Made by a program: the position numbers and the translations under genes. Shown piece by piece: positions 18,000 through 27,576 of a stretch of DNA of 30,038 nucleotides (within the stretch, counting starts at the first letter, position 1; each line of letters opens with the position of its first letter). Source of the DNA: a virus. The notes below the pieces were generated by a model. It saw only the letters and a list, made by a program, of their open reading frames with translations. It was not told the DNA's origin and ran no database searches. The stretch is from positions 1 through 30,038 of the IMG/VR virus record IMGVR_UViG_3300025102_000178; one strand, 5' to 3'.

Positions 18000-18406
18000 T
18001 TGCCCCTCGCTACTACTTGTGCCATTACTCCATAATTTGATACATCTGAGAAACTATCAGTTACGGGTTCTCCCTCAACTGCGTTATTTCCTCTCATCAA
18101 TAATGTTTTCATTCTCTCAATTTTGTCATTACACCTGAACCAAATACCCAACAACGATAACTTAATATCCTCTGGTGTTTTTAGAATAGTTCCCACTGCA
18201 ATATTTTGTGGACCATAGTCGTATTGTTTTCTACAAAACAATTCGTATTGTTCTGATTGTATTTTTAGAAACTCACCTGTCATTTCAGGATAAGTTCTCT
18301 CCATATATTTTACGACATCTTGTGTGTCTACCATTTCTTGGTCTTCTTTGGTTAAGGTTGCCTTTGGTATTCCTACTTTTGTAGGTGCGTCTTTAATCGC
18401 CATCAT
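17987..18406 (-). CDS. DUF1599 family (nucleotide modification-associated domain 1) protein
   Basis: A 139-residue protein with the DUF1599 signature: KQYDYGPQNIA (about residues 75-85), then LSLLGIWFRCNDKIERMKTLL (about 101-121, quoted in part by its FRCNDKIERMK core) and DSFSDVSNYGVMAQVV (about 136-151 of the family alignment, here the C-terminal helix). The family is all-helical, related in pattern to MazG/dUTPase-type proteins, and associated with nucleotide modification or pool control in phages. Its exact reaction is unproven. The ATG overlaps the gp62 stop (ATGA). An internal sigma70-like promoter at 18462-18491 may give it extra transcription. Confidence 0.75.
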   Translation of the reverse strand: MMAIKDAPTKVGIPKATLTKEDQEMVDTQDVVKYMERTYPEMTGEFLKIQSEQYELFCRKQYDYGPQNIAVGTILKTPEDIKLSLLGIWFRCNDKIERMKTLLMRGNNAVEGEPVTDSFSDVSNYGVMAQVVARGKWAK

Positions 18407-18834
18407 TTACTCCATATTTTTTTTAGTTGTTTTTCATCTACACCATACTTTGATATAATTGAATATACAACATCTTTACCCATAATGTCAAGTGTTTTTT
18501 CAATATTTTGTGAACTTTCTTGAAAGTAATCACACAATATATCCATAGCCCACTTTTCTATCTTGGATTTCTTTTTAGATTTAGTATATCGTAAGTATGT
18601 ATTTCCTCTTGGTAGTAGATTTGTATAGAATTGATATACCGTTTTAGGTTTCAATTCCCAATATTGTTGTATTTCATTTACAACTTCTATCCACTCTGGT
18701 TTCATTGATAAAAATCTATGCACCATATAATTGGACCAAGTCTTTTTATCGGCGTCTGTAATGTTGTCCCAATAATGTTGGTTTTGAACATTAGTAATTT
18801 GTTTTATGTGGTCAAATAGTGTTTTTGTTTTCAT
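18403..18834 (-). CDS. gp62: Clamp-loader small subunit (gp62-like)
   Basis: A 143-residue helical protein that fits the phage clamp-loader A subunit (T4 gp62, 187 aa; marine T4-like versions are shorter). Supporting features are MVHRFLSMKPEWIEVVNEI (residues 32-50) and NLLPRGNTYLRYTK (about 72-85), matching the T4 segment that ends in VPRGKRYGKW. The C-terminus is YGVDEKQLKKIW, like T4's KEQKQLKKLALEW. It would bind four gp44 subunits to load the gp45 clamp. In T4 its gene adjoins 44; here they are separated by about 7.8 kb. Recognition rests on short motifs. Confidence 0.72.
   Translation of the reverse strand: MKTKTLFDHIKQITNVQNQHYWDNITDADKKTWSNYMVHRFLSMKPEWIEVVNEIQQYWELKPKTVYQFYTNLLPRGNTYLRYTKSKKKSKIEKWAMDILCDYFQESSQNIEKTLDIMGKDVVYSIISKYGVDEKQLKKIWSK
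18462..18491 (-). promoter_or_regulatory. Possible internal sigma70-type promoter
   Basis: Within the gp62 coding sequence the minus strand reads TTGACA (18491-18486), 18 bases, then TATATT (18467-18462), about 55 bases before the DUF1599 start. The hexamers equal those of the early promoters at 1777 and 2280, but the spacer core differs and the site is coding, so chance is possible. Confidence 0.35.
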
Positions 18835-18856
18835 AGTGAATAACCTTTTAGATATA

Positions 18857-18870
18857 AATAAATAGTTAGT
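18857..18870 (-). promoter_or_regulatory. AT-rich repeat box upstream of gp62
   Basis: The 59-base gap before gp62 carries ACTAACTATTTATT on the minus strand, identical to 14 bases before the RHH gene (16281-16294). It is followed by TATATC and an AAAAGG ribosome binding site. A promoter or operator role is inferred from position and repetition. The plus strand here reads TATAAATA, the T4 late promoter core, but pointing away from gp62. Confidence 0.4.
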
Positions 18871-18893
18871 ATGAAACTGAAAATGTAATATTT

Positions 18894-20945
18894 TTAATAT
18901 TGATTTGTCATTTCTGTTCTTGGAAATGACATCTTATGTCTATCATAATCCATACTATCTTGATAAAGTTCATTAACCTCATCTGAATATTGATATTTAC
19001 TGACATTATCTTTAATGTATATGTTGTTTCTTGCAACAAAATCTAATTTGTCTGTGTCATCAAATAGTTGTTTATCTACATTTGAAATCTTAAATCCATA
19101 TTTCACATCAAGTTCAAATTCATCTCCGTTTGATTTGAGAGAGAAATTACAATTGAAATGTGAGTCCTTTAAATTATATCCTTTAAAGTTATCCCTAATG
19201 ATAAAGTTAATATTAGATTTATTTGTAACATTAACCAATACCCAAGCAAAACCTTTAATCGTCTTTATAATTTCATTTTCAATCGAATCTACAATATTGC
19301 TTTGTTCTGTTGATAGTAAAAACTCATTTGTGAAGATACTATTATCTGCTTCTTCTTTTAGTTCTACATCTATATTACCAACTTGTAATGAGTTTTCTCT
19401 AATTCTTGCTCTATAATATGGTGGTTTTCCACCCTTTTCTTTTGGTGTGGCATATGAGAAATCATCTCCTATTAAGTCCTCACCCTCTTTGGTAAAGTTA
19501 AATATATTTAACAAGACCTCAATAAAGAATGCTTTTAAATGTCTAATCATTAATATATTTTTATAATCATTTGAAGTCCAAGCGTTTAAAATTGTTTTTT
19601 CCTTTGAAACATCAAAGTCATCTCTATAAACATCTAATGGTGTGTGGTCTAAAATGTCTGTTGATTGCATTAAGTTTAACAATCCATTGTTTCCAAAGTA
19701 TTTGTGGTTGTCATATAGAAATTTTAATTGTAACATAAAGTCCATATGATTTTCCTTTGGATAACCTGGTATCCAATTTGCATTATAAAATACATTACTC
19801 TCGTGAGCTGATTTCAAGAAGTGACTAACATCATCAGAAGTTTGTCCTTTTTCCATCAATGCCAGTATCTTATTCACTCCATTTTCTACACCAACATTCA
19901 TATAATTTAGTCCAACATTTACTGCTCTTGTTAGTAACTCTCCGTCAAGTTTCTTATGTGTTCTGAAATGTCCACCCCAATACATTTTTGGTATGTTTCC
20001 ATTTTCTGTTTCTTCCTCTAACTTATTTACAAGCTTTTTAAACAATGGCATTGACCCGTTGATTAGAGAATCAGTAAACCAAAAGTTATTAATGCCAGTT
20101 TGTTTATGTAATCCTTTCATCTCACTAACAATCTTTTCATTATTTTTGTATCGGTATAATCTGGTCTCACTACAAAATGTGCATTTAAAAGTGCAACCTC
20201 TTGATGTCTGCATTGGTAGTGTAACTTCCAAGTCAAATAACTCTGCTAATTTTTTATAATCATCTATTACTTTGGTATCCCAACTTGGTGTTTCTAATTC
20301 ATTTAGATTTTGTGGTAATATACCACCATTGAAAACTGGCTTTCTACCACTACGACCCCTTTTCAATACCGTAGGAAAACTTGGTGTCATTTTATCCCAA
20401 CGATAAATACCTTTTACATTTTCATAATGTCCGTCTTCCATATAACGATTTACTAATTCAGAGATAATTTTCTCCCCATCTCCCGAACCACAAGCGATAT
20501 CAACAAACTCTCTATAATTATCTTTCTCAACTAACCCACCAGACTCTGAATACCAAGAGTAAGGGCCACCATACCATATTTGTATATTCTTATTTTTTTG
20601 TTTTAAGTATCTCGCTATATAATCTGTTGTAATAATATTTGATGTATATGTAGTAAATGCTACCACATCATAAGTGGATAGTTCATCTATATATTCGTGC
20701 CATAAATCTTTAAAGTGTGGTAATATATCCGTTTGAAAATTTGCTTCAGAGTTCCAAGGTTTATCATTACCCCAATCCCAAAACTTTTCTATGTTTTTTT
20801 CTTTAGTGTGAATTGACGATAGTATGTTTAAATCTATTTGTTCTACAACGACATCTTTATTATTGATGTGTGATTTTAAACTACCAATTGCGAAAGAAGG
20901 TGTTTGAACCGACCATTGTGGACATATACATAATGCTAATCTCAT
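18894..20945 (-). CDS. B12-binding-type radical SAM enzyme
   Basis: A 683-residue enzyme. Residues 1-190 resemble the cobalamin-binding Rossmann domain of class B radical SAM proteins (LALCICPQWSVQTPSFAIG, DVVAFTTYTSN, IWYGGPYSW, ACGSGDGE). The radical SAM core follows, with SRGCTFKCTFCSE giving Cys251, Cys255 and Cys258 as [4Fe-4S] ligands. WFTDSLINGS and YMNVGVENG are typical downstream core strands. About 200 C-terminal residues are extra, mostly beta. The substrate is unknown; relatives methylate unactivated carbons or make ring changes. I use ATG 20945, which overlaps the dioxygenase stop (ATGA); the frame is open 11 codons further. Confidence 0.82.
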   Translation of the reverse strand: MRLALCICPQWSVQTPSFAIGSLKSHINNKDVVVEQIDLNILSSIHTKEKNIEKFWDWGNDKPWNSEANFQTDILPHFKDLWHEYIDELSTYDVVAFTTYTSNIITTDYIARYLKQKNKNIQIWYGGPYSWYSESGGLVEKDNYREFVDIACGSGDGEKIISELVNRYMEDGHYENVKGIYRWDKMTPSFPTVLKRGRSGRKPVFNGGILPQNLNELETPSWDTKVIDDYKKLAELFDLEVTLPMQTSRGCTFKCTFCSETRLYRYKNNEKIVSEMKGLHKQTGINNFWFTDSLINGSMPLFKKLVNKLEEETENGNIPKMYWGGHFRTHKKLDGELLTRAVNVGLNYMNVGVENGVNKILALMEKGQTSDDVSHFLKSAHESNVFYNANWIPGYPKENHMDFMLQLKFLYDNHKYFGNNGLLNLMQSTDILDHTPLDVYRDDFDVSKEKTILNAWTSNDYKNILMIRHLKAFFIEVLLNIFNFTKEGEDLIGDDFSYATPKEKGGKPPYYRARIRENSLQVGNIDVELKEEADNSIFTNEFLLSTEQSNIVDSIENEIIKTIKGFAWVLVNVTNKSNINFIIRDNFKGYNLKDSHFNCNFSLKSNGDEFELDVKYGFKISNVDKQLFDDTDKLDFVARNNIYIKDNVSKYQYSDEVNELYQDSMDYDRHKMSFPRTEMTNQY

Positions 20946-21511
20946 ACAAAACAATCCCCCAACATCCAAGAGATACAAGAATATCGTCTTCCTTTTGTGA
21001 TTGGTGTAACTCTATGTGATAAGAACGCAGGAAAGATTGTGATACTTCCTCGTGTTCTTGGTGCGGTGTAATTGTTTTTACCTGATTTGTCTGTAATTCC
21101 AAATTCTAAATTTCCACCCTCATACATTGTTTCATCACTTAATTGTATAACTGCCGTCAGTTTTCTTGTAGAAGTTTCTTTTGAACCACAATCAGTATGC
21201 CATTTGTATTTACCACCATTTTCGTATCGTAGTATTTTGACCTTTTCCATTTCTTGTATATTGTATTTCCAAATAGATAGATTAGATAATTCAAATGCCA
21301 TTTTTATTTTGTTTTTTAGTTTTTCATTATTGATTGTAACTTCTTTATTATCACGAACTTCTTTGTTTAAAATATTATCATCATAATTACCAGCGAGTTC
21401 AGATTCAGTTGGTTGTCCTGTTTCCAAGTATCTCATTAGTTTCTGACATTGACTCAATGATAAAAAGTCCTCTCTATGAACTACAAATTTAAAATTGTCG
21501 TTTTGTATCAT
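20942..21511 (-). CDS. 2OG/Fe(II) dioxygenase, third of a tandem set
   Basis: A 189-residue 2-oxoglutarate/Fe(II) oxygenase of the prolyl-4-hydroxylase/PiuC type. The iron triad is His105-x-Asp107 (KWHTDCG) and His166 (LSHRV). Arg176 in KGRRYS would bind 2-oxoglutarate. GGNLEFG and ITIFPAF are the usual strands between. It shares ending WMLGDCFV and overall layout with the two genes upstream, so the three arose by duplication. The target is probably a protein or peptide side chain or small metabolite. Start ATG 21511 overlaps the upstream stop by 4 nt; the 11 extra upstream codons are rejected. Confidence 0.85.
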   Translation of the reverse strand: MIQNDNFKFVVHREDFLSLSQCQKLMRYLETGQPTESELAGNYDDNILNKEVRDNKEVTINNEKLKNKIKMAFELSNLSIWKYNIQEMEKVKILRYENGGKYKWHTDCGSKETSTRKLTAVIQLSDETMYEGGNLEFGITDKSGKNNYTAPRTRGSITIFPAFLSHRVTPITKGRRYSCISWMLGDCFV

Positions 21512-22104
21512 ACAAAAGTATCTCCTACTCCCCAACACACACAAGAGTATCTATTACCTTTTGTAATTGGTGATACTCCGTGTCCTGCAAATGAAGGATG
21601 TATTATTAACTTTCCTACTTCTGGTTCAACTATTGTTCCGTCAAACAAACTAAATTCTCCACCCTCATAATCTGTATTTAAAAATACAATACAAGTTAGC
21701 TTTACTGAACTAAATCTTTTAATTGGATGAAAGTCTGAGTGTGGATTATACCAATCTCCAATATCATATCTGTGTGCTTGTAGTCTATTATCGTAAATAC
21801 CTTTAATGTTGTATTTATAAATTGTTTGGTCTGCTATTTTTATGGCTGTCCAAAACTTATCAAGATATTTTTGTTCCGTTGTTCTACTGATATTTAACAT
21901 ACAAACACCATCGTCCATAACTGGTTCTTCTTCCCAAACTGGATTTTCTTCACCTGTGTAGTGTCCTTGTTTTCGTGTAGATTCTTTATCGATATACTCT
22001 ATCATAAAATCACAATCTTCTTGTGAAAAGAAATTACTTTTTTCAACTACCCATTTGAAGTTTTGATTTAACTTCAAACTATCCATATCTATTGGTTTAT
22101 ACAT
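21508..22104 (-). CDS. 2OG/Fe(II) dioxygenase, second of a tandem set
   Basis: A 198-residue dioxygenase of the same family as its neighbours. Iron ligands: His122 and Asp124 (PHSDFH), His175 (GHGVSP). Arg185 in KGNRYS fits the 2-oxoglutarate carboxylate contact. The double-stranded beta-helix strands are visible as TCIVFLNTDYEGGEFSLF and KLIIHPSF, and it ends WGVGDTFV. The N-terminal helix region (FFSQEDCDFMIEYI) matches the other two copies. AAGGAT stands five bases before ATG 22104. All key residues are present, so it should be active; the substrate is unknown. Confidence 0.85.
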   Translation of the reverse strand: MYKPIDMDSLKLNQNFKWVVEKSNFFSQEDCDFMIEYIDKESTRKQGHYTGEENPVWEEEPVMDDGVCMLNISRTTEQKYLDKFWTAIKIADQTIYKYNIKGIYDNRLQAHRYDIGDWYNPHSDFHPIKRFSSVKLTCIVFLNTDYEGGEFSLFDGTIVEPEVGKLIIHPSFAGHGVSPITKGNRYSCVCWGVGDTFV

Positions 22105-22112
22105 TTTTATCC

Positions 22113-22739
22113 TTATTTAAAGTGGTCACCGACAAATATCTCTTGGATTACATATCGTTTACCTTTACTAATTGGAACAACATTATGACATAGAAATGCC
22201 GGAAATAATGTTAATGAACCTTTTAATTGATTCATTGAATACCACTCTTTTGTATCTTTATCTTGAATACCGAACTGAACTTCACCACCCTCATATTCAC
22301 TTGGGTCTGTCAATTGAACAATTCCTACTAATTTTCTTACTGAACAAGTTCCTGCGTTAAAATCTGTGTGCCAACCATAGAATCCACCTTTTGTATATTC
22401 TATTAGTTTTAATTCATCATCACACGCATCAATATCAAAATGAAATACTTTATCATTTATAATGTTTGCTATTTGAAACATCTTGTCTTGTAACCATTTC
22501 CAATCTTTGTTTGGTTTATCGGGTCTGAAATCATTATCACTCTGTTCTCGTAAATACCATTCCCTTGTTTTTCTAATCTCCGGTATGACTGCGTTATTTC
22601 CCTTTTCATCTCCGACACAACCCGTTACACCCTTTTCAGATTCCATAATGTCATTTAATAATTCATCACACTTTTCTGGTGATAAAAAATTTGGAATTTG
22701 AACTGAATATAAAAAGTCGTTATTCTGTTTCTGACTCAT
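22113..22739 (-). CDS. 2OG/Fe(II) dioxygenase, first of a tandem set
   Basis: A 208-residue dioxygenase. Iron ligands are His124-x-Asp126 (GWHTDFN) and His185 (LCHNVV). Arg195 in KGKRYV is the probable 2-oxoglutarate contact. GGEVQFG and LTLFPAF mark the core strands and it ends IFVGDHFK. It is closest to the third copy (20942-21511) around the HTD motif. The start overlaps the Hint-protein gene by 20 nt with no clear Shine-Dalgarno sequence, so translation is probably coupled to that gene. This ties the dioxygenases to the Hint protein in expression. Confidence 0.84.
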   Translation of the reverse strand: MSQKQNNDFLYSVQIPNFLSPEKCDELLNDIMESEKGVTGCVGDEKGNNAVIPEIRKTREWYLREQSDNDFRPDKPNKDWKWLQDKMFQIANIINDKVFHFDIDACDDELKLIEYTKGGFYGWHTDFNAGTCSVRKLVGIVQLTDPSEYEGGEVQFGIQDKDTKEWYSMNQLKGSLTLFPAFLCHNVVPISKGKRYVIQEIFVGDHFK

Positions 22740-24531
22740 CTGATACTAAAACCTTATTCGCAAAGTAGTTCTTGCTGTTATTTGTGTTGTCTATATTGTA
22801 TGTTGTTTCTATTGTGTTGAGTGGTTTATATCCCATCAATTCTATTTTGCCTAAATCATCAGTTAAAACTTTATCACCTAATTCTAATGGTCTGTAATCT
22901 GAGTCTGTATATGAATCACCAGCGATATAAAATGGGTGGTCATCTGTTGCTTTAATTATAGTATTGTTATCGAATCTATACTCAACTAAGTTATCGTGTT
23001 CAATTTTTGTTACATCACCCACAACTGAATTTTGTAATCTACCAGTTTCTTCGTTGTATGTTTTAATTTTCATACCTGATGTTATATTTTTAATCTTCTC
23101 GTAAGTTCCGTCAAACAATGTAATCATTGTATCACCTGTGAAACATTTACCTGGTGGAATATTATGGACCAATATATCTGAAGTGAAGTATGTATCGATA
23201 TCTTCAACATCTAATGAATAAAATGTTTCTTCTTGGGCTACTTCTGTTTTTGATGTTATTTCGACTTCATTTCCGTCTTTATTTAAAAAGTAATCTCCTG
23301 TATCTATATCGGTTGGTTTAGCCCAACTCCAAGTATCTCCTTGTTTAAGAAAGTATCTCGCACCTTTCATCATAGATTGTTTCATAACTGGAACTTTAAT
23401 ACTATCATTAATTAAGTAGTATCCATAATAGTCCTCTTGTAAAGTTCTAACCACAACTGAACCTGATGGTGTTGAACCACTCAAATCTGTTGTAGAATAA
23501 CTTAACCAGTCCTCAAAGAAAAACTCATCTGGCATTCCAACTGGTTTGTATGATTTAACTACATCACCAACTTCTACATCTTGAACTTGTTTAGTTGAGT
23601 CATCATACATACGAATTAAACTCCCACTTGCGGTTGAGTATAATAGTGCGTTTTGCATATGGTATCTGTCACCACTCAATATAAACTTTGGTGCTATTGA
23701 TAATACTAACTTATCCTTTTTCTTTGTTAGTATTTGTCTGTCTGGTGTCATTAAGTATTCATATTTAGGTGATTTTAGATATCCTTGTGTTCCTATGGTT
23801 GAACCACTTGGAACAATATAGGTTTCAATTAGTGAACCACTATCCACACCAGATTGGTATGTGTTATTCTCTGCTACATACTTATGGAATAAAATTGAAT
23901 TGTCATAAGAAGTTCCATCTTGTGCTGGATTTTTAATTACAAAGTCTGGGTGATATGCATTTGAATCTGAAAAAGAACCTGTATTAAATATTGGAATTAA
24001 ACTTGAATTAACTGGTGATGAATTTAATATAGTTCTAAATGTATCCTTGTTAAATGAACCACTAACTATGTTTAATAAAGTGTCATCACTATACCAAGGT
24101 GTTTGCATAAACAAGTGGAAACTATCCGTATGGTCATTACTACCTCTTTGTGAGAAATATGTTAATGAAGTATCTTGTTCAAATTCAAAATTACAACTTA
24201 TGTTGTGTCTGGCAAAACTTGAACTAATTATTGGTTGTTGAAAATCGGAAGGATTAAACTTAACGCTATCATTTTGTCCATAAATGTATGCAGTTGTGCA
24301 ACCTTTTTCATTTGCATAATCTGCCATTAAATCAAATGAAGCTGTTTGGTCATTATAAGTTCCATAAACACCACACGCAGTATTCATCTCATTCAAATAA
24401 ATATCACCCGTGGTTTCTTCTTTTATGTAATCAACACCAGCGAAAATACCAATATTGGTATTTGTTGGCCAACCACCACCACTTCCTGTGATGTAATTTA
24501 AATAATTTTCTATTGTTGTTTGTACTGACAT
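22720..24531 (-). CDS. Protein with ATP-grasp-like region and two tandem Hint domains
   Basis: A 603-residue multidomain protein. Residues 27-290 hold ATP-grasp-like pieces in a permuted order: GVDYIKEETTGDIYLNEMNT (Asp34, Glu48, Asn50) first, then DFVIKNPAQDG (Lys200) and SLIETYIVPS (Glu236). Hint 1 spans about 299-457: Ser299 where the nucleophile should be, no TxxH, but ending ILVHN. Hint 2 spans about 463-598: CFTGDTMITLFDG with Cys463, TDDH (Thr529-His532), ending VLVSD instead of HN. Hint domains self-cleave or splice proteins. AGGAAAAAATT precedes the ATG. The Hint calls are firm; the ATP-grasp call is inference. The Ser/Thr/Gly-rich style also suits a virion protein. Confidence 0.75.
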   Translation of the reverse strand: MSVQTTIENYLNYITGSGGGWPTNTNIGIFAGVDYIKEETTGDIYLNEMNTACGVYGTYNDQTASFDLMADYANEKGCTTAYIYGQNDSVKFNPSDFQQPIISSSFARHNISCNFEFEQDTSLTYFSQRGSNDHTDSFHLFMQTPWYSDDTLLNIVSGSFNKDTFRTILNSSPVNSSLIPIFNTGSFSDSNAYHPDFVIKNPAQDGTSYDNSILFHKYVAENNTYQSGVDSGSLIETYIVPSGSTIGTQGYLKSPKYEYLMTPDRQILTKKKDKLVLSIAPKFILSGDRYHMQNALLYSTASGSLIRMYDDSTKQVQDVEVGDVVKSYKPVGMPDEFFFEDWLSYSTTDLSGSTPSGSVVVRTLQEDYYGYYLINDSIKVPVMKQSMMKGARYFLKQGDTWSWAKPTDIDTGDYFLNKDGNEVEITSKTEVAQEETFYSLDVEDIDTYFTSDILVHNIPPGKCFTGDTMITLFDGTYEKIKNITSGMKIKTYNEETGRLQNSVVGDVTKIEHDNLVEYRFDNNTIIKATDDHPFYIAGDSYTDSDYRPLELGDKVLTDDLGKIELMGYKPLNTIETTYNIDNTNNSKNYFANKVLVSDESETE

Positions 24532-24541
24532 AATTTTTTCC

Positions 24542-24554
24542 TATATATAAATAT
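24542..24554 (-). promoter_or_regulatory. AT-rich box upstream of the Hint gene
   Basis: In the 27-base gap before the Hint gene the minus strand reads ATATTTATATATA, the same 13 bases as before gp45 (28326-28338). It lies about ten bases from the ATG, very close for a promoter with a leader; AGGA directly follows. The plus strand reads TATAAATA. Function uncertain. Confidence 0.35.
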
Positions 24555-24558
24555 CAAT

Positions 24559-24996
24559 TTAGTCCATTTTAGTGAATATTTTTTCTTTTAATACTGATTT
24601 TGCTGGCTCGTTCCAATCATCTATAAACATCATTGCGTAATTGTATCCCTGTTTTTTGATTTCATTACAACGAATCCATATTAAATCTAAATTTAAACCT
24701 GTTCCTCTATGATTTGGAAACACATATTTCTGGCATAACATAGGGTATTTTCTATTCCAATCTATAAATGCCCAACCACCCTCAACTAAATAAAATGTCC
24801 AATTGTCTTTTAATCTACTTCGTAGGTCTTTTAAATTCCACTCTTGCCAATCTTTTCCAAATGAATCTTTAAATTCAGCTAACTCTTCTGATATTACTTG
24901 TATCTGTTCTGAATTAATATCATTATAGTTTGTAACCTCTTGATAATTTTGAACCTCTCGTGGTTCGTAATTACTTAAATCTATCTTGTAATACAT
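24559..24996 (-). CDS. GNAT-like acetyltransferase, 145 aa
   Basis: A 145-residue protein resembling GCN5-related N-acetyltransferases. The motif A region is KYVFPNHRGTGLNLDLIWI (residues 90-108), with the RGTG acetyl-CoA pyrophosphate loop, followed by the long alpha-3 helix. GWAFIDWN and YNYAMMFIDDWN are the flanking strands, and the WNEPAKSVLKE helix matches the motif B position. The N-terminal 50 residues are atypical. It may acetylate an amine made or exposed by the neighbouring enzymes; the target is unknown. It overlaps the upstream SGNH gene by 26 nt, with GAG upstream of the ATG. Confidence 0.65.
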   Translation of the reverse strand: MYYKIDLSNYEPREVQNYQEVTNYNDINSEQIQVISEELAEFKDSFGKDWQEWNLKDLRSRLKDNWTFYLVEGGWAFIDWNRKYPMLCQKYVFPNHRGTGLNLDLIWIRCNEIKKQGYNYAMMFIDDWNEPAKSVLKEKIFTKMD

Positions 24997-25654
24997 CTTT
25001 TATTTTCTCTGCATATTGTTTGTGTGCTTTTGGTCCGGGGTGTAGTCCGTCTGATGTATAATCTACTCTTTCAAAAAATACATCAAAAAATTCTTCTGGT
25101 AAATCCCCGTCCCAAGTTCCCCATATAATTTTATCACAACCTATAAATCTATTTAGTAATTCATAGTTATGTAGAAAATTAGAATAATTGTTATACTCAT
25201 TGATATTTACTTTTTCTTTTACTTGCCAAGGTTTCATAACAACTCCGTCGTCGTCAAACCAAGTTCTTCTAAAATAATGTGGAACCGTAATAATAAATAT
25301 TTGTCGTCTTGATTCTGGTATATAAACTTCTGATAGAGTCTTGACTGCGAAATCCAAACCTGTTCCACCTGCTCCGTAATTATGAACTGATGTGTTTTCA
25401 TCACCTAATAAATGAGTAAAGGTTTCTTCTTGCTTTATGTCCCAACCATAAGTCCAACTACAACCAAAAGTATAGATTTGCCTTCTGACGTTTTCATCAT
25501 TGTAGATTGGGTCGTGTTGTCTTCCACCCTCTAATCTACCATTATTTTTTTCGTAGATGTTCAGTCCTGTTTCAGTTCCGTTCTTACTTACTCTATGATT
25601 CTCATAGTAGAACTTGTCTACATTATATTTAACTTTCTTGTCCATACCAACCAT
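24971..25654 (-). CDS. SGNH/GDSL hydrolase-like protein, copy 2
   Basis: A 227-residue SGNH-superfamily protein. Block I is YTFGCSWTYGWD (Gly64-Cys65-Ser66), with Cys in place of the usual Asp but Ser retained. HNYGAGGTGLDFA (about residues 95-107) gives the glycine and Asn region, and SDGLHPGPKAH near the end supplies Asp202 and His205 of the DxxH pair. It is a clear paralogue of the next gene upstream. SGNH enzymes are esterases or acyltransferases, often de-O-acetylating glycans. Two starts are possible (25654 or ATG 25645); both overlap the upstream copy. Confidence 0.75.
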   Translation of the reverse strand: MVGMDKKVKYNVDKFYYENHRVSKNGTETGLNIYEKNNGRLEGGRQHDPIYNDENVRRQIYTFGCSWTYGWDIKQEETFTHLLGDENTSVHNYGAGGTGLDFAVKTLSEVYIPESRRQIFIITVPHYFRRTWFDDDGVVMKPWQVKEKVNINEYNNYSNFLHNYELLNRFIGCDKIIWGTWDGDLPEEFFDVFFERVDYTSDGLHPGPKAHKQYAEKIKDVLQDRFK

Positions 25655-26402
25655 TTTTTCTAAGAATATTCTTTATCTTTTCTGCATATTTTCTATGACC
25701 GATTGGACCTGGATGATGAGTTGGTCCTATAAAGTCGTGTATTTCAAAAAATATATCCATTTTGTCGTGTGGTATTTCAGCATCCCAAGTTCCCCAGATA
25801 ATCTTATCTCTTCCAACTAAACTATTTAAGAGTTCGTAATGATGTAGAAAGTATAGGTAGTGATTGTATTCAGTTTCTTTTACTGCATTTTCCTTTGCCC
25901 AACTTCTACGACCAATATTTTGTTCGTCAAAGTGCATTCTTCTAAATGCGTGTGGAATTGTAATTACATATAAAAAGTTATCATTTTCATAATGTTTATA
26001 CTTTTGATAAACTTCCGCTATCTTTTTTGCTGCATAGTCCAGTCCAGTTTTACCTGCTCCGTGATTCCATACTGAAGTGTGTTCATCTCCGAGTAAGTGT
26101 GTGAAAGTTCTTTCTTGTTCAATATCCCAACCATAAGTCCAACTATCTCCGAAAGTATGGATTTGTAGTGGTGCATTTATATCATTATACTTCGGGTCAA
26201 CTTCTCTACTTGTGGTTTGACTTAACCATAATGGTCTTTCACCCAAGTATTCAATGTTATCTGCTTTCTCACGAATCTGTATGTTATCGTAATAATACTT
26301 ATGAACATACTCCAATACCTTTTTGGTAAAAAAAGTATCTTCCTTTGTGAGTCCAATTTCTTTACCTGTTTGTGGTCTCCAAAGTTTATTTATCCAGTTC
26401 AT
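25629..26402 (-). CDS. SGNH/GDSL hydrolase-like protein, copy 1
   Basis: A 257-residue paralogue of the following gene. They align from about residue 80 to the end, with shared FTHLLGDE, HGAGKTGLD, KIIWGTWD and HPGP segments. Block I is the classical HTFGDSWTYGWD (Ser87). At the C-terminal DxxH position it reads GPTHHPG: His230 is kept but Pro227 stands where the catalytic Asp should be. An 80-residue N-terminal extension is absent from copy 2. ATG 26402 overlaps the zinc-ribbon stop (TAATG); the longer frame is rejected. A reduced or changed activity is plausible. Confidence 0.74.
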   Translation of the reverse strand: MNWINKLWRPQTGKEIGLTKEDTFFTKKVLEYVHKYYYDNIQIREKADNIEYLGERPLWLSQTTSREVDPKYNDINAPLQIHTFGDSWTYGWDIEQERTFTHLLGDEHTSVWNHGAGKTGLDYAAKKIAEVYQKYKHYENDNFLYVITIPHAFRRMHFDEQNIGRRSWAKENAVKETEYNHYLYFLHHYELLNSLVGRDKIIWGTWDAEIPHDKMDIFFEIHDFIGPTHHPGPIGHRKYAEKIKNILRKNGWYGQES

Positions 26403-26656
26403 TATACTCCTGGTTTTGCTAAACCTGCCGACTCTAACATATTTTGTGGAACTTTTCCACAACTACCACAAGTAAAAACTTGTATTGGAACAATTGATTC
26501 CTTACCTGTTGGTGATACTAATGCCGATATTTTCTTTAAAAAGAAGGCCGGTGTAAATGCTGCGTTTCCACAATCTTCACATTGGATTGTATCTGAATCT
26601 GTTAAGTCAATTTGTGGTGGTGCTTTTGGTGGCACCGGTCCATTTGGATTACTCAT
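26402..26656 (-). CDS. Zinc-ribbon protein, 84 aa
   Basis: An 84-residue protein with a Pro-rich leader (PNGPVPPKAPPQ) and a four-cysteine zinc ribbon, Cys26-x2-Cys29 (CEDC) and Cys63-x2-Cys66 (CGSC), separated by a hydrophobic helix and strand. The C-terminal tail is short and ends KPGV. Its ATG overlaps the gp44 stop as ATGA, so it is translated with the clamp loader. A role at the replisome or in late transcription through the clamp is conceivable from context only. It marks the boundary between the replication genes and the accessory block. Confidence 0.72.
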   Translation of the reverse strand: MSNPNGPVPPKAPPQIDLTDSDTIQCEDCGNAAFTPAFFLKKISALVSPTGKESIVPIQVFTCGSCGKVPQNMLESAGLAKPGV

Positions 26657-27576
26657 TTAATACTCCCTATTAATTCAACAAACATAGCCATAATGTTGAT
26701 TTCTTTATCAACTACTACTGCGTCTGATTGTTGGTATTTACTCAAAATCAATATACACTCAGCGATATGTCCTGCTCCCCAATCATCTACGGTATCAAAC
26801 ATCAATCTGAATAAATCAGAAAAGTCCGTTACTTTTGAATCTGCTAACAATTGTCTAATGTTTTTAAATGAATTCTTTTTGTCTTGTGTTTTCAATATAT
26901 CCAACACTTGATTTTTATAATCATTTTGAACAATAGTATTTTCGTCAATTGTTAATTTGGAATCTACGACTTGTCTTTGAGCACCATTGATTACTCTTCT
27001 GATATCTGGATAACCACCATTTACTATGGTTGCGATATCTTTAATATCATACTCTACACTTTCATTTGTCAATATGTTTGCCAAATGTTGTGCGACTTGT
27101 TTTCTGTCTGGTGGGACAATTTGAAATGATTGACAACGACTTTGTATCGGGTCAATTATTCTCTCTACATAATTACAAGTTAGGATAAAACGACAATTCT
27201 TTGAGAAAGTTTCCATAAGATTACGAAGTGCTGCTTGAGCGTTTGGTGTAATGTAATCACACTCGTCCAAGATTATAACTTTCATATCTTTGAAACCTAA
27301 TGTTGATGCGAAGTTCTTGACTTTCTCACGAACTACATCTACACTATTCTCATCTGATGCGTTTATATAAAGGTAATCACAATCAATGTTATTAATTAAT
27401 AGTTTAGCAAGTGTTGTTTTACCTGTTCCTGCTCTACCGAATAATAATAGATGTGGTATATCTCCTGATTCAAGATATACCGACACCTTTGATTTTAAAT
27501 GGTCATTACCGATATAATTCTCTAACTCACTAGGGCGATATTTCTCAACCCATAAGCTATGTTTTAGAGTTTCCAT
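26653..27576 (-). CDS. gp44: Clamp-loader ATPase subunit (gp44-like)
   Basis: A 307-residue AAA+ ATPase of the RFC small-subunit/T4 gp44 family (T4 gp44, 319 aa). Visible motifs: WVEKYRPSEL near the N-terminus, Walker A GRAGTGKT (47-54), Walker B IILDECD (101-107), sensor 1 LTCN (132-135) and the SRC arginine finger (146-148). Five subunits, four gp44 and one gp62, open the gp45 ring and place it on primed DNA. The start overlaps the gp45 stop (TAATG), coupling translation. All catalytic residues are intact. Confidence 0.95.
   Translation of the reverse strand: METLKHSLWVEKYRPSELENYIGNDHLKSKVSVYLESGDIPHLLLFGRAGTGKTTLAKLLINNIDCDYLYINASDENSVDVVREKVKNFASTLGFKDMKVIILDECDYITPNAQAALRNLMETFSKNCRFILTCNYVERIIDPIQSRCQSFQIVPPDRKQVAQHLANILTNESVEYDIKDIATIVNGGYPDIRRVINGAQRQVVDSKLTIDENTIVQNDYKNQVLDILKTQDKKNSFKNIRQLLADSKVTDFSDLFRLMFDTVDDWGAGHIAECILILSKYQQSDAVVVDKEINIMAMFVELIGSIK

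Follow-up and report, generated by a model that had tools for sequence, protein, structure and literature searches.

The gene at positions 22720-24531 (-) of the window, the whole 30,038-nucleotide stretch of viral DNA analysed here, encodes a protein of 603 amino acids in which an ATP-grasp N-terminal domain is followed by two Hint folds. The first Hint (H1) has a C-terminal His-Asn but lacks Cys1 and TxxH, while the last Hint (T) has Cys1 and TxxH but lacks His-Asn. This complementary split, described in a first-pass annotation of the sequence, is present and conserved across the relatives of the protein. Judging from their sequences, it is ancient, and its halves sit at opposite ends of a longer array of Hint modules that varies between relatives. 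We infer, with moderate confidence, that the array undergoes BIL-like autoprocessing limited to its internal junctions, which would leave a mature ATP-grasp-H1 protein. The features are listed in Table 1.

Table 1. Features of the ATP-grasp-Hint gene and of the gene that overlaps its end (window positions).
Feature	Position	Strand	Description and basis
N-terminal domain, residues 1-290	23662..24531	-	ATP-grasp, eukaryotic glutathione-synthetase type; AlphaFold2 model and VIA-align, conserved columns in 38 homologues
Hint 1 (H1), residues 299-457	23161..23637	-	Lacks Cys1 and TxxH, VHN end; VIA-align, profile match, residues tabulated in 131 homologues
Linker IPPGK, residues 458-462	23146..23160	-	Predicted excised peptide; compared with linkers of all arrays
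Hint 2 (T), residues 463-598	22738..23145	-	Cys463, TDDH 529-532, Ser597-Asp598 end; VIA-align, Pfam, cassette breakpoints
C-terminal tail ESETE and stop	22720..22737	-	Overlaps next gene
ATG of downstream 2OG-Fe(II) oxygenase gene	22737..22739	-	Inside D598-E599 codons
2OG-Fe(II) oxygenase, first of three consecutive	22113..22739	-	Start within T cassette; Pfam 2OG-FeII_Oxy_3 E 2e-10

All of the residues on which the first-pass annotation relied were located where it had placed them (S299, VHN 455-457, IPPGK 458-462, C463, TDDH 529-532, and LVSD 595-598), and the protein ends five residues beyond D598. Pfam strongly detected Hint 2 only (Intein_splicing E 1.1e-9, PT-HINT E 3.9e-8, Hint E 3.3e-5). 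The AlphaFold2 model of the protein, obtained from 68 alignment rows, had a mean pLDDT of 83 and a pTM of 0.70. With VIA-align, Hint 2 (residues 459-600) was superposed on BIL2 (6y75_B) with a Z score of 22.5 and an rmsd of 1.4 over 136 residues, and its residues 463 to 598 were matched to residues 1 to 440 of the Mtu RecA intein, with C463 on Cys1 and D598 on the terminal Asn. In a model of residues 1-457, H1 (residues 295-457) was superposed on the same BIL2 chain with a Z score of 13.9 and an rmsd of 2.0 over 126 residues, and S299 fell on intein residue 1. The last strand of H1 was poorly predicted in this truncated model (446-453, pLDDT < 50), and the exact placement of N457 therefore rests on sequence. 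H1 was detected by profile: an alignment of 38 relatives matched BIL2 (6tmm/6y75, E 4e-9; the 6y75 match at query 299-369, chain 6-77), as well as the Clostridium BIL domain 2lwy (query 402-457). By sequence profile, BIL2 and a bacterial intein-like domain were the nearest solved structures for both Hints. Predicted structure, superposition, and profile searches thus agree on two tandem Hint domains; the superposition proposed as a check aligned S299 and C463 with residue 1 and D598 with the terminal Asn, and the single fold that had been named as contrary evidence did not appear.

Residues 1-294 had no sequence match in Pfam or PHROG, and their identity came from structure only. In the AlphaFold2 model, this region was superposed on 3kal_A by VIA-align with a Z score of 11.8 and an rmsd of 5.0 over 250 residues, and Foldseek matched it to eukaryotic-type glutathione/homoglutathione synthetases with E values of 6e-6 to about 1e-5. 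As modelled, the N domain has a glutathione-synthetase-like ATP-grasp fold. It is similar to these enzymes over the 250 superposed residues but differs in its sequence (about 11% identity), its shorter length, and its fusion to Hints. Across 38 sequences, one of them at 21% identity, E236 and T51 were invariant, and D34, E48, and N50 were nearly so. The candidate metal or ATP ligands, read from conservation, are the conserved E48-x-N50 and E236, together with position 200 (K or R).

Hundreds of loci were obtained from five scans of IMG/VR with proteins or profiles, and these collapsed to 136 distinct ORFs with at least one array Hint module; a few distant relatives were handled apart from these. 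The gene was found to be a modular series of constant order, in which one or two further Hints (M1 and M2) may follow H1. Counted as distinct ORFs, the forms were N-H1 (14, including L039, whose contig stops at the start of T), N-H1-T (43), N-H1-M1 (3), N-H1-M1-T (25), N-H1-M1-M2 (13), and N-H1-M1-M2-T (18), in addition to truncated contigs. The window protein is the H1-T form and therefore consists of the first and last array members. In about fourteen distinct ORFs, H1 is the only Hint and is followed by a short tail. Roughly half of the arrays have further Hints, one or two in number and complete at both splice junctions, that are either located between H1 and T or terminal. Since the homologues are related, these counts describe conservation and not independent events. 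No cultured phage with the same whole protein was found, the matches being to the Hints only, and there was no bacterial homologue among the genome contigs searched with the profile used. No further copy of T was found in the same record, which is a 30-kb fragment, and no paper on phage tandem Hint arrays was found in the literature library searched.

The gene belongs to an accessory operon of marine T4-like phages (window 18403-27576) that is located between gp44 and gp62, both clamp-loader genes, and whose gene order is preserved in nearly all relatives. The operon comprises one or more SGNH-like hydrolases, a GNAT-like gene, the ATP-grasp-Hint gene, two to four 2OG-Fe(II) oxygenases, and, sometimes or often, a B12 radical-SAM enzyme. 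The SGNH-like label is a motif reading of a gene for which Pfam had no match, and the best NCBIfam match of the radical-SAM enzyme, a sub-cutoff hit that serves as a lead only, was a RiPP-maturation methyltransferase.

The distribution of catalytic residues depended on the position of the Hint in the array. Neither Cys1 nor TxxH occurs in any of the 131 distinct H1 modules, and each of them has a terminal HN with I or L as the next residue. Position 1 of H1 (299 in the window) is S, T, I, or M in the relatives scored, and Ser299 was for this reason rejected as a working nucleophile. The HN pair, encoded by CATAAT (70), CACAAT (49), CACAAC (9), or CATAAC (2), is among the 25 invariant columns out of 457 in 38 homologues, one of them 21% identical. 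In M1, HN-K was present in 73/73 copies and Cys1 in every copy with its start on the contig; block B reads TFDH or TPNH in 60/73 and V-x-D-H, with Thr lost, in 13/73. The 39 M2 copies all have the residues of a splicing intein, namely Cys1, TGNH or TDNH, and HN followed by S (37) or T (2). For T (n=102), Cys1 was found in all copies with the start present and a TxxH-type block B in 102/102. The codons of Thr529 and His532 vary synonymously, and Cys463 is TGT in 99/99. The end of T is SD-E in 95 copies, HN-E in five, and unscorable in two; all five HN-ended copies belong to four-Hint arrays, a distribution that points to SD as a derived loss. Where an array terminates with H1, M1, or M2, HN is kept and followed by a tail of 2-4 residues; the C-terminal edge of the array is hence not always dead, a point against autoprocessing limited to the internal junctions. 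The homologue survey that had been proposed therefore recovered the same split in 131/131 H1 and 95/100 scored T modules, and with the Pfam match to Hint 2 (E 1.1e-9) it establishes that the pair is no chance feature. Complete or randomly degraded motifs, which the annotation had regarded as evidence against its view, were absent for the first Hint, although the last Hint retains HN in 5/100.

A distant member, L335 (2567-5845, 1093 aa), is likewise located near a gp62-like gene and is 21% identical over N-H1. Its ATP-grasp-like N domain is followed by an H1 that has Ser at position 1, lacks TxxH, and carries AHN, and then by complete M1 and M2 modules. Because its H1 shows the same residue state at this identity, the N-dead, C-kept state of H1 is old. 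The L335 C-terminus (residues about 790-1093, about 300 aa) has a repeat-rich, fibre-like look and gave no match among phage records; as M2 ends in HN-S ahead of it, this may be a true splicing case. Separately, Pfam AXH (the ataxin-1/HBP1 module, PF08517) matches M1-type phage Hints, with E 9e-25 for L335:2567-5845 and E 2e-9 for L338:3842-5032. The latter, on a 113-kb contig, is a Hint within a 397-aa protein that is rich in cysteine, contains a proline-rich stretch, and ends in an arginine-rich segment. AXH is possibly related to Hint; the literature library searched contained no paper linking AXH with inteins. Two irregularities were also observed: a short direct repeat of the NILVHNK coding end right after the stop of an M1-ended array (L285:3620-3670), perhaps a recombination scar, and a frameshift near the T end in a three-Hint array (L170:3020-3070), perhaps a homopolymer assembly error.

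The first-pass annotation had suggested, as one possibility, that H1 cleaves at N457 and T performs an acyl shift at C463, the two making up an unusual two-part processing unit. The first part remains the natural reading of the residues and is predicted here; a dedicated two-part unit was not supported by the survey, since H1 was found alone and complete Hints were found between H1 and T. The conserved split therefore belongs to the array ends and not to a two-domain pact. The related idea that H1, with its HN, and T, with its Cys1, cooperate as one split active site draws on the exact complementarity of their residues, which all H1-T arrays conserve. We find it scarcely credible, as H1 exists without T, complete Hints can intervene between H1 and T, the exchange of T is independent of H1, and the two share 20% identity. 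This identity, and their assignment to different Hint subfamilies, also led us to reject H1 and T as duplicates or as two halves of one Hint.

A closer relative of H1 was the C-terminal Hint of a large phage NCTB protein, which is 32% identical and shares an insertion, PxGMPDE...DW (PxMxDE...DW). This Hint has Cys1, TQQH, and a VHN end followed by seven residues. The tail region of phage NCTB (L051) encodes two proteins with Hints, and a similar C-terminal Hint occurs on a virion structural protein of Erwinia phages (pEa_SNUABM). These Hints resemble H1 in subfamily, insertion, and C-terminal HN with a short tail. They differ from it in that the NCTB and sampled Erwinia proteins retain TxxH and NCTB a clear Cys1, and in being single Hints on other proteins.

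Since H1 lacks the residues for N-terminal chemistry and T those for the C-terminal cut, the chemistry would be confined to the internal junctions. H1 would be unable to attack its own N-terminal junction and would remain fused to the ATP-grasp domain, while cyclisation of Asn457 would cut the chain after this residue. T would form a thioester at Cys463 (K462-S-C463), resolved by hydrolysis or amine attack, and would be unable to cut at its own C-terminus. In the longer arrays, M1 and M2 would be capable of both cleavages. Trimming would thus be expected to yield ATP-grasp-H1, free Hint domains, and short linker peptides (IPPGK in the window). In many inteins, Asn cyclisation is helped by the block-F His; H1 lacks this His, with Asp446 at its position, which counts against autoprocessing, as does the frequent slowness of C-cleavage. 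Some inteins couple C-terminal cleavage to the steps that precede it (PMC4031507), and this also counts against C-cleavage by H1 because it cannot perform the N-terminal step. A further point against this reading is that an Asp-ended Hint is in principle still able to cyclise (PMC4031507). BIL domains, which have no +1 nucleophile, yield mainly cleaved products (PMC7664689).

The Hints might instead be structural beads that serve as a C-terminal stabiliser or binding module with little or no cleavage, their leftover catalytic residues being inherited. Half of the H1 active site is indeed already gone in all members, and annotated virion or tail proteins of phages (NCTB and the Erwinia phages) carry close relatives of H1 as their C-terminal domains. 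However, deeply diverged members retain Cys1, TxxH, and HN at all internal junctions while the codons change synonymously, and the losses in H1 and in T are one-sided only. Beads are an unlikely explanation, though one with some weight.

Every scored internal junction consists of HN, a linker of 1-10 residues, and Cys. The linkers after H1 were IPPK (40), IPPGK (26), IPPRK (13), and others; those after M1 were KF (35), KGSF (9), K (3), and others; and those after M2 were SSF (13) and others. The layout of each junction (Asn end, short peptide, Cys thioester) matches that of SICLOPPS, and the arrays could conceivably be natural peptide dispensers. The junctions would excise and possibly cyclise linkers such as IPPGK, IPPRK, and KGSF, and the operon enzymes would modify the peptide or attach it in the infected cell; we give this reading a very slight chance.

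Phages exchange T as a DNA cassette whose breakpoints coincide with the edges of the domain. Over 38 two-Hint proteins, N-H1 identity and T identity had a correlation of only 0.25. Between L036 and L028, DNA identity was 75% in H1, 99.0% in T, and 85.5% downstream; between L106 and L033, it was 93.8%, 78.9%, and 96.3%, respectively. The mismatch density shifts at two places, one no more than about 30 nt from the Cys codon and the other at the SDES codons. In 98/98 scorable T-ended arrays, the downstream 2OG-Fe(II) oxygenase has its ATG within the final codons of T, and the overlap reads GATGAG or AATGAG in the window and the examples printed. In arrays without T, the next gene begins 8-51 nt past the stop, apart from four M1-ended cases without such an ORF nearby. 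The conservation of D598-E599 is partly explained by this overlapping ATG and is not to be read as a functional tail, and the case for the conserved SDES as a functional C-terminal signal is weakened likewise. The middle and last Hints might be selfish mini-intein cassettes in a dispensable tail, of no benefit to the phage, as their combinatorial presence and absence, exact boundaries, and exchange could suggest. We consider this very unlikely, given that no module has an endonuclease, that the module order is fixed, and that the start codon of the next gene lies inside T in every scorable T-ended array. Under autoprocessing at the internal junctions, T and the middle Hints would be exchangeable cassettes in a tail that H1 would remove anyway.

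Compared with known systems, the protein is a variant within the Hint/BIL domains. Class 1 inteins have Cys or Ser at position 1 and TxxH, as does T; H1 has S, T, I, or M at 299 and lacks TxxH in its 131 members. At their other end, class 1 inteins have a terminal Asn, Gln, or Asp and C, S, or T at +1, whereas H1 ends in N followed by I or L, and T in D (95) or N (5) followed by E. Class 2 inteins have no residue-1 nucleophile, TxxH, and Cys at +1; H1 differs in the absence of TxxH and in its +1 Ile or Leu.

BIL domains (2lwy and the Amitai/Dassa families) share with the window protein the Hint fold (Z against 6y75 of 13.9 for H1 and 22.5 for T), the Cys1 and TxxH of T, a non-nucleophilic +1 residue (I/L after H1 and E after T; definition in PMC7664689), and predicted cleavage over splicing. 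They differ in combining Cys1/TxxH and a terminal HN in one domain; T has no terminal His-Asn, H1 has no Cys1 or TxxH, and Cys1 occurs with HN in M1 of the longer arrays. One to four modules are moreover placed in tandem here, with linkers of 1-10 residues.

The Tetrahymena BUBL1 BIL2 (6y75, 6tmm), the nearest solved structure to both Hints, similarly belongs to intein-like domains inside one polyprotein, but BIL2 is flanked there by ubiquitin-like domains (PMC8616854), while only short peptides lie between the Hints here. BIL2 makes a Lys isopeptide bond, conjugating to lysine (PMC8616854), and by analogy both BIL-type cleavage and BIL2-type lysine conjugation are possible for T. T as a conjugation device, like BUBL1 BIL2 or the Hedgehog Hint (Hog), would use the Cys463 thioester to pass the upstream protein, ending in IPPGK, to an amine of another molecule. 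The structural proximity of BIL2 to T and H1, its isopeptide chemistry, and the possession by T of Cys1 and TxxH without a C-terminal Asn or HN, as in Hedgehog, point in this direction. We nevertheless hold it to be rather improbable: no acceptor domain or sterol/lipid recognition region such as that of Hog follows T, only five residues past D598, and the transferred tag would be no longer than five residues should H1 also cut at N457.

SICLOPPS, with its engineered split-intein order IC-peptide-IN, has the same order of junction chemistry (Asn end, short peptide, Cys1); the arrays differ from it in their whole Hint folds instead of intein halves, linkers down to one residue, and, mostly, no Cys or Ser after HN. 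Hint domains are usually single, or separated by cargo as in BUBL. This family strings one to four Hints in constant order with almost no cargo, and the first Hint is always without N-terminal chemistry and the last nearly always without C-terminal chemistry. The natural series H1, H1-T, H1-M1-M2, and H1-M1-M2-T is therefore suited to the study of the uncoupling of N-terminal from C-terminal cleavage. Hint modules also spread here without an endonuclease of their own, as the precise transfer of the last Hint from phage to phage shows, and, if the junctions release peptides, the arrays would constitute a new phage route to short peptides.
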